Positions 56,322-59,071 of a stretch of DNA of 64,000 nucleotides are shown here, in pieces. The DNA lies in NCBI GenBank assembly GCA_024275315.1, contig JAJRZK010000028.1, forward strand, positions 1 through 64,000, written 5' to 3'. The notes beneath the pieces are model-generated. The model worked only from the letters and a program-made list of their open reading frames with translations. It searched no databases and had not been told where the DNA came from. Positions within the stretch are counted from its first letter, which is position 1. The number at the start of each line of letters is the position of its first letter. A program made the position numbers and the translations under genes. The stretch comes from Nitrospirota bacterium (GTDB lineage Bacteria; Nitrospinota_A; UBA7883).

Positions 56322-56873
56322 ATGCCGGAAAAAAACACTAGCACGTTGGAATTTGTCAGGCTTTTTTCCCGTGCTATCAAGGACATTGTGCTCCGCACGA
56401 CAAAAAAAAATATCCGTATCTCCAAGACTGCGATGCGGGTTGACGGGGTGCAGGTGACAGGAGATATCGGAGCTTTCGTGGCGTTCAGCGGCGACTACAA
56501 CGGAATAATGATACTCAACTTTGAAGGAGACGCCGCCTTAGACATTGTCAGCGACTCCCTGCGCAATATGGGACTGCCGGAGGAGGACATTCCGAAACAT
56601 GTCGGCTCGGACGAGGTGCGGCAGAATATAGGCGAGATGGCCAACCAATGCGTGGGAAAAGGCCGATCCCTCGTCCAGGAAAAATTCGACCTGTCCGCCA
56701 AGGCGAACATTCCGGCCGTGGTCCCGATCACGGTTCCGATCGCGCTTTCCATGGTGTCCAAGGAGCCGAAAAACTTCGAATGTGTGCGGGTATCTTTCAC
56801 AACCGAGAAACGGCATAAATTCTACATGGAACTTGCGCTGGAACCGTTTGTGGAGATGCATATTGATGAGTGA
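56322..56873 (+). CDS. DUF3334/CheX-like protein
   Basis: 183 aa. Matches DUF3334 proteins: TGDIGAFVAFSGDYNGIMILNFEGDAALDIVSDSLRNMGLP followed by SDEVRQNIGEMANQCVGKGR. The E-x2-N-type motif (IGEMANQ) is that of the CheC/CheX/FliY phosphatase fold, so it may dephosphorylate a CheY-like receiver or act as a structural relative. An AGGAGAAAGG ribosome site precedes the start. Its stop is followed after about 200 bp by selD. Confidence 0.75.
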   Translation: MPEKNTSTLEFVRLFSRAIKDIVLRTTKKNIRISKTAMRVDGVQVTGDIGAFVAFSGDYNGIMILNFEGDAALDIVSDSLRNMGLPEEDIPKHVGSDEVRQNIGEMANQCVGKGRSLVQEKFDLSAKANIPAVVPITVPIALSMVSKEPKNFECVRVSFTTEKRHKFYMELALEPFVEMHIDE

Positions 56874-57079: not shown

Positions 57080-58156
57080 ATGCCAGAAAAAATACGTTTG
57101 ACGACATTGGCCACATCGGGCGGTTGAGGCGCTAAATTGGGTCCGGAGGACCTGACCGCGGCCTTGACAGAACTGTTCGATCACGCTGACGCTGACCATG
57201 TTTTGGGGTTTGGTTCCGGCGCAGACATTGGTTTGTTCAAATTTAGTGACGACCTGGCTATTGTTCAAACTCTTGATTTTTTGACCCCTATAGTGGACGA
57301 CCCCTACGAATTCGGGCGTATTGCAGCGGCTAACGCACTTTCCGATATCTACACCGCCGCCGCCCGGCCCGTGACTGCGCTTAATATTCTGGCCTTTCCA
57401 TGTGAGCTGGGAACGGACGTGGCGGCCCGGATCCTCAAAGGCGGAGCCGATACCGTGGCCGAAGCGGGAGCGGTCATCCTAGGTGGTCATACCGTGAACG
57501 ATGTCGAGCCTAAGTATGGGCTGGCGGCGACAGGCGTTGTTGATCCGGCGAGGTTGATTACCAATGAGGGCGCAAAACCGGGCGATGCGCTGGTTCTGAC
57601 AAAAAAAATCGGCACAGGCATCCTTAACAGCGCCATCAAGCTTTCCAACGGGGTTCTGGAATATTACCGTGGCGCTCCGCCGGACATACCAGGCTCCGTC
57701 TTTGGCGAGGCGACAGCGAGCATGATGCGGCTGAACAAATCGGCGTCCGAGGCGATGGTGAATTTCGGGGCGACAGTCTGTACTGATGTAACCGGCTTTG
57801 GCCTGCTGGGTCACGCTCGCACACTTGCGCAAAACTCCGGCGTGGCGATTAGCGTTGAATACTCAAAGATCCCTGTTTACGACGGTGTGGAGGCTTTCGC
57901 CGGACCAGGCACAAAAGGGGGAGGAGAAAGAAACTATGACTGGGTAAAAAGCGTTCTGAACGTGTCACCGGCGGTCGGTATGGATCAGCTGATGACCCTG
58001 TGCGATCCGCAGACATCAGGCGGGTTGCTGATTTGCGTTCCCGAAAAAATGTCTGACAAACTGGTAAAGCGACTGGTAGATAGCGGCGATGAAGCCTCGG
58101 CGATCATCGGTATTGTCGAGAATGGGCGCTCTGGGTCGATCAGGATATTGCCATGA
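57080..58156 (+). CDS. selD: Selenide, water dikinase containing selenocysteine (UGA at 57125)
   Basis: 358 aa if UGA at 57125-57127 is read as selenocysteine (residue 16). Before the UGA the frame reads MPEKIRLTTLATSGG, the family N-terminus; after it GAKLGPEDL continues in the same frame, giving the active-site pattern U-G-x-K (Cys/Sec17 and Lys20 of known SelD). The body has QTLDFLTPIVDDPYEFGRIAAANALSDIYTAAARP and VILGGHTVNDVEPKYG. A SECIS-like hairpin starts 12 bases after the UGA. SelD makes selenophosphate, the selenium donor for Sec and selenouridine. A conventional start at TTG 57137 would delete the catalytic residue. Confidence 0.92.
57125..57152 (+). promoter_or_regulatory. Bacterial SECIS element with recoding UGA
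   Basis: TGA at 57125-57127 is followed 12 bases later by GGTCC-GGA-GGACC (57140-57152), a perfect 5-bp stem with a G-rich triloop. Bacterial SECIS hairpins recognised by SelB have their apical stem about 11 bases after the UGA. The match in position and shape supports recoding. Confidence 0.75.
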
Positions 58157-58163
58157 TCGTAAG

Positions 58164-58502
58164 CTAGAGCCGGGCGAGGGCCTCTTTTTCCGATGGGTAT
58201 ACATCCACCAGCTTGTCCAGCTCCGCCGCTTTTACAGCTTTTGACACCGAACCTTTCAGGCCGCATAGCGCAAATAAATGCTGTTTTATCACCGCTTTTC
58301 TGTAATACACAAGAATAAAACCGATTCCGGCGCTGTCCATTCTGGTTACCGCGGCCAGGTTAATCAGCAATTTCGACTTTTCAGAATCGTTCAACACACC
58401 GTCAAGACCGCTGGCAAGCCCATCGAGCTCGGCGGATATCATTTCGCCCTTCAACTTTATTACAAGCGTTCCACCAGACACCTTTGTTTTGTATTCCACC
58501 AT
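58164..58502 (-). CDS. STAS-domain anti-sigma-factor antagonist
   Basis: 112 aa from ATG 58502. Single STAS domain with LVIKLKGEMISAE and the phosphorylation-site segment LINLAAVTRMDSAGIGFILVYY (Ser in MDSAG intact). Such proteins bind an anti-sigma kinase when unphosphorylated. No RsbW-like kinase or sigma factor is adjacent, so its pathway is unknown. Convergent with selD (7 bp between stops). Confidence 0.88.
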   Translation of the reverse strand: MVEYKTKVSGGTLVIKLKGEMISAELDGLASGLDGVLNDSEKSKLLINLAAVTRMDSAGIGFILVYYRKAVIKQHLFALCGLKGSVSKAVKAAELDKLVDVYPSEKEALARL

Positions 58503-58558
58503 CACCTGACTTTTTTGGTGTTTCTGAAAAAAGCGACACAAACCATCGCAAGCTCCCG

Positions 58559-59071
58559 CTATTGCGGGACCATATAATCAAGCCTATACCTGACATAGTT
58601 ATTCGCCGATTTTTTCAGCCAGCCAATTTCATCCTCCGTAAGGTTCCGCTTGACTTTCCCCGGTGATCCCATCACCAGGGCGCCAGAGCAAACACGGGTT
58701 CCTTCCGTCACCAGCGTTCCGGCGGCGATGATGACATTTGGTTCCAAATGGGCTCCATCCATGACAATCGCGCCCATGCCTATCAAGGCAGGCCCCTCGA
58801 TCCGGCATCCATGCAGAGTCACGTTATGCCCCACGGTAATATCATCACCCAGCACGAGGGGGTGGGTTTTGGCGGTGACATGAAGAACCGACCCGTCCTG
58901 TATGTTGGTGCGCGCCCCGATCCGGATGTAATTGACATCGCCGCGCACCGTGGCGTTGAACCAGACTCCGGATTCCGCCCCTATGTGTACGTCTCCGATT
59001 ATCTGGGAGCTTGCTTCTATGAAGGCGGAACCGTCTATGGTCGGTGATATGCCTTTCCAGGTCTTTATCAT
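58559..59071 (-). CDS. Gamma-carbonic-anhydrase-family protein
   Basis: 170 aa. Left-handed beta-helix hexapeptide repeats throughout (IGDVHIGAESGVWFNATVRGDV ... VIIAAGTLVTEG). The three metal-ligand histidines are present in SVLHVTAKTH, ITVGHNVTLHGC. Close to YrdA/CaiE-type proteins; carbonic anhydrase activity is possible but often absent in this group. C-terminal helix normal. Confidence 0.92.
   Translation of the reverse strand: MIKTWKGISPTIDGSAFIEASSQIIGDVHIGAESGVWFNATVRGDVNYIRIGARTNIQDGSVLHVTAKTHPLVLGDDITVGHNVTLHGCRIEGPALIGMGAIVMDGAHLEPNVIIAAGTLVTEGTRVCSGALVMGSPGKVKRNLTEDEIGWLKKSANNYVRYRLDYMVPQ

Follow-up and report, generated by a model that had tools for sequence, protein, structure and literature searches.

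The stretch of DNA analysed here (64,000 nucleotides of a Nitrospirota bacterium contig, JAJRZK010000028.1; hereafter the window) carries a gene of the selenophosphate synthetase (SelD) family with a UGA codon close to its start, which raises the question of whether this codon ends translation, is an error or mutation, or is read as an amino acid, and if so which. The gene forms one forward-strand frame running from the ATG at 57080 to a stop codon at 58154-58156, and the UGA is its single interruption and lies in frame (Table 1). With the UGA written as U, the translation reads MPEKIRLTTLATSGG-U-GAK-LGPEDLTAAL... and continues up to this stop. In a profile search of the genome the frame scored 325.6 bits against TIGR00476, for which the curated cut-off is 125 bits, with one TGA within the match; this bears out the claim of a preliminary description of the locus that the UGA splits one SelD frame. 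The match extends across model positions 1-309 of 311, and an hmmscan of the protein against the same model gave 331.8 bits. No other SelD in the genome passes the cut-off, the solved structures closest to this protein are selenide, water dikinases, and its matches in a contig scan come from mixed phyla at no more than 46% identity. A start at this ATG also gives an N-terminal leader as long as those of the SelDs of relatives. The frame and the position of the UGA within it are clearly beyond chance, and from the evidence discussed below we regard it as nearly certain that this gene encodes a selenocysteine (Sec)-containing SelD, its UGA being decoded as Sec with a SelB-bound hairpin downstream. 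Judged by eye, the neighbors of selD resemble a CheX-type chemotaxis protein (56322-56873, forward strand), a STAS-domain anti-sigma factor antagonist (58164-58541, reverse strand) and a gamma carbonic anhydrase (58559-59071, reverse strand), with no obvious selenium gene among the three.

Table 1. Positions of selD, its predicted recoding elements and the other genes of selenocysteine use in this genome (plain numbers are positions in the window; prefixes denote other loci or contigs)
Feature	Position	Strand	Description
selD (selenide water dikinase / selenophosphate synthetase)	57080-58156	+	358 aa with UGA read as Sec
UGA codon, predicted Sec	57125-57127	+	catalytic position, residue 16; aligned with the catalytic Cys of PDB SelDs
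AAA codon, catalytic Lys	57134-57136	+	residue 19 of the UxxK motif; from translation
Bacterial SECIS-type hairpin (predicted)	57137-57155	+	stem UUGGGUCC / GGACCUGA; MFE fold
selA	C44:31390-32790		555 bits, above curated cut-off
selB	C41:100299-102185		367 bits, above curated cut-off
tRNA-Sec	C13:51278-51368		77.5 bits (gathering 47); ARAGORN tRNA-SeC, anticodon tca (UCA)
fwdB (formylmethanofuran dehydrogenase subunit B)	L135:1189-2550, UGA 1579	+	same gene in L142, contig C49

Examination of the PDB alignments that cover the N-terminus places residue 16 on the catalytic cysteine and shows Lys19 to be conserved, giving the active-site motif U16-G-A-K19. The preliminary description had put the UGA at the catalytic Cys/Sec site with a lysine three residues on and had proposed an alignment with Sec- and Cys-type SelDs; both the PDB structures and 98 SelDs that we typed agree with this placement, the UGA meeting Sec or Cys in the typed proteins. 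Of these, 65 have TGA as the active-site codon and 33 have a Cys codon (TGC or TGT), and the UxxK/CxxK motif is present in 98 of 98, although this motif belonged to the filter used for typing. Mechanical ORF calling at this locus yields only a 339-aa product from a TTG at 57137 that lacks the active site, so the earlier warning that automated annotation would start at this codon and lose the active site holds. The same ORF call would favor the UGA being a true stop, with a shorter SelD-like protein devoid of the active-site loop starting from this TTG or later. However, such a protein would leave the conserved leader RLTTLATSGG and the catalytic lysine lost or untranslated, the 15 codons upstream of the UGA are conserved as protein in relatives, and in the families compared the ability to make selenophosphate goes together with Sec or Cys at this position (PMC4561486). 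We accordingly give a genuine stop practically no weight.

In a set of 60 genomes, made up of this one and 59 for comparison, 33 SelD genes scored above the cut-off, 30 of which contain exactly one in-frame TGA. The same SelD codon is TGA in independent assemblies of eight further genomes from the order to which this genome belongs. This bears directly on the possibility that the TGA is an error of sequencing or assembly, or that a nonsense mutation has recently made the gene a pseudogene, in which case the true or ancestral codon would be TGC or TGT: TGA is one base away from either, and TGC does occupy this site in one genome of the order (G008). Against it stand the shared TGA, the intact and conserved frame downstream, the complete Sec machinery of the genome, and a SECIS-type hairpin that is found in the Sec forms and missing from the Cys form. 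Since the Sec-type SelDs of the order share the codon in independent assemblies, a sequencing error is very unlikely, and conservation appears effectively to refute the error or pseudogene explanation as a whole, for which we would allow only a slim residual chance.

The reading of the UGA as Sec predicts a SECIS element just downstream, and a hairpin indeed follows the codon, composed of GGTCC (57140-57144), a GGA loop whose first base is G (57145-57147) and GGACC (57148-57152). These three elements and the 12 nucleotides between the UGA and GGTCC are as the preliminary description had them. In the folded form the stem is longer, with 57137-57144 paired to 57148-57155, so that the hairpin starts 9-12 nucleotides past the UGA and has 7-8 base pairs with G-U counted, namely five Watson-Crick pairs (GGUCC/GGACC) and three outer pairs including G-U. 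The isolated hairpin has an MFE of -9.0 kcal/mol and a z-score of -1.6 to -2.1 relative to shuffles. We also recoded the peptide at random, taking synonymous codons from nine of this genome's genes; 4.0% of draws gave a stem of 7 base pairs or longer in the same register, and 1.9% an 8-base-pair stem anywhere nearby. Given that random recoding produces comparable stems in 2-4% of draws, the lone sequence does not prove a SECIS element, and the significance earlier implied for it should be toned down; taken by itself the hairpin is only modestly above chance. A search of Rfam around the UGA returned chance matches only and no family that fits the hairpin.

It is the conservation of the hairpin in relatives that makes a SECIS element in selD a convincing prediction. 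Each of the order's nine Sec-type SelDs, this one included, has a stem of at least 6 base pairs in the same register, which is absent from the single Cys-type SelD of the order (L037, from G008). Among all typed genes, 23 of 65 of the Sec type but 1 of 33 of the Cys type have a stem of 4 base pairs or more in this register. Many other, more distant Sec-SelDs have a good hairpin in another register, as expected if these shifts reflect the diversity of bacterial SECIS elements, and the exact SelB contact in this gene is only predicted. The codons GGT CCG are invariant in the nine selD genes of the order, while neighboring synonymous sites vary. Furthermore, in 21 sequences picked for a hairpin in this register, a compensatory U-A to A-U change (GGUCC/GGACC to GGACC/GGUCC) is found in five and a compensatory G-C to A-U change at another pair in one; the covariation score was 0.216, whereas shuffles averaged 0.114 and sliding the register gave 0.01-0.065. 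Because the set was selected for the hairpin, its share of paired cells is inflated and is not independent evidence; the compensatory changes are less affected by this bias and support the proposed stem. The gene L041 preserves the stem by a G-C to G-U change (GGTCC/GGATC).

The genome (2.9 Mb, estimated completeness 100%) was predicted by the preliminary description to encode selA, selB and tRNA-Sec elsewhere. All three are present, each above its curated cut-off and none adjoining selD, so the Sec reading survives its main test, a possible absence of this machinery. Among the eight further genomes of the order that have a Sec-type SelD, selA was found in all but one, G001, a fragmented genome estimated to be 90% complete. 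We also note a Sec/Cys exchange inside this one order: G008 (87% complete) combines the TGC-bearing SelD, without a hairpin, with no detected selA.

Searches of this genome for further selenoproteins were targeted at particular families, not a genome-wide prediction. A search for molybdopterin proteins recovered on contig C49 (G000) a frame with one TGA that encodes FwdB, scoring 497 bits against TIGR03129 (cut-off 327.8) and bearing the motif UHSP; an initial view of SelD as the sole selenoprotein of the genome was dropped once this gene turned up. A frame resembling fwdA lies downstream of it, as judged by eye. FwdB is above the cut-off in 6 of 7 genomes of the family, with TGA at the same place in 6 of 6, and was not found in the other genomes searched of the phylum. 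When the six genes were compared, 167 positions had an invariant amino acid with degenerate codons, and at only 15 of these was the codon itself the same throughout; codons +9 to +14 past the UGA (CAG CTC GGC GGT GCG CCG), identical in 6 of 6, form the sole run of at least four identical codons in 280, and can pair as GGCG-GUG-CGCC. The MFE fold of the first 48 nucleotides past the UGA was no better than shuffles, and the case for a SECIS element in fwdB is therefore built on codon conservation. These frozen codons point to a putative bacterial SECIS within the gene, and we predict that FwdB is a selenoprotein in this genome. As a second predicted selenoprotein gene, fwdB was counted in favor of the Sec reading of selD. 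FlpD/MvhD and HdrA-type proteins, searched as families, had no TGA inside the match. A formate dehydrogenase alpha-like protein of about 914 aa (approximately L130:646-3390, forward strand) has Cys at the Sec position (RVCHAP) and was rejected as a selenoprotein.

An in-frame UGA by itself does not specify the inserted residue, which leaves room for a general reassignment of UGA to Trp or Gly or for unspecific readthrough. However, the genome encodes selA, selB and tRNA-Sec, translation of nine of its genes with table 11 as a control meets no stop before the single terminal one, and both in-frame UGAs found, in SelD and FwdB, fall at active sites where relatives have Sec or Cys; insertion of another amino acid thus has a negligible probability. 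We infer that Sec is inserted at the UGA of selD and that Sec16 has a catalytic role, which is established for the family. Following the published scheme for SelB, SelD and SelA (PMC13188914, PMC1794560, PMC4561486), the ribosome reaching this UGA would insert Sec instead of terminating, with SelB carrying Sec-tRNA-Sec bound to the hairpin immediately 3' of the codon. Sec16 and Lys19 would then form the active-site, selenium-handling loop of a SelD that makes selenophosphate from selenide and ATP. Selenophosphate would in turn be used by SelA to make Sec-tRNA-Sec, so that the loop would close on SelD, which would be needed for its own synthesis.

No match to TIGR03167 at E <= 0.001 was found in the genome for mnmH (MnmH/SelU), and by this marker the selenouridine trait is absent. 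An origin of FwdB in archaea with transfer to bacteria has been argued by one 2023 study (PMC10100899). We tentatively suggest, as a possibility that we consider rather unlikely to hold in full, that a bacterial family has retained the Sec trait without selenouridine and with no Sec-type formate dehydrogenase in the set of molybdopterin proteins examined, a single self-dependent Sec-SelD mainly serving FwdB; in archaea the SECIS lies in the 3' UTR, and the UGA of fwdB might have acquired a SECIS of bacterial type once the gene had been transferred from there. Sec-FwdB is already recorded for both domains in a 2026 review (PMC13188914), and the present instance is for this reason not a new kind. 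The pairing of a bacterial SECIS with a gene whose origin is archaeal nevertheless merits a closer look. More practically, mechanical gene calling that relies on standard start and stop codons would miss the catalytic N-terminus of SelD and split FwdB.

Among prokaryotic selenoprotein families only one is more widespread than Sec-SelD, and given this wide distribution the selD described here is a further case of low novelty. It leaves existing knowledge of SelD unchanged, but confirms selenocysteine use in the lineage and offers a clean case of a genome whose only SelD requires its own product. Cys-type SelDs, such as that of E. coli (PDB 3u0o, as we take it), belong to the same family and align through the active-site loop; they differ in having TGC or TGT in place of TGA, and a hairpin in the corresponding register is absent in 32 of 33. 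Other members of the PurM superfamily (ThiL, HypE and PurM) show a weak resemblance, the present protein lying far below their cut-offs and far above that of SelD. The closest counterparts are the bacterial Sec-SelDs (COG0709/TIGR00476), those of Desulfovibrio and Clostridium being among the ones included in PMC1794560. With these the gene shares the family, the position of the UGA, the UxxK motif, a hairpin of bacterial type and the presence of selA, selB and selC in the genome (PMC1794560, PMC4561486), and there is no difference of substance, selD simply not lying beside selA, selB or selC here.
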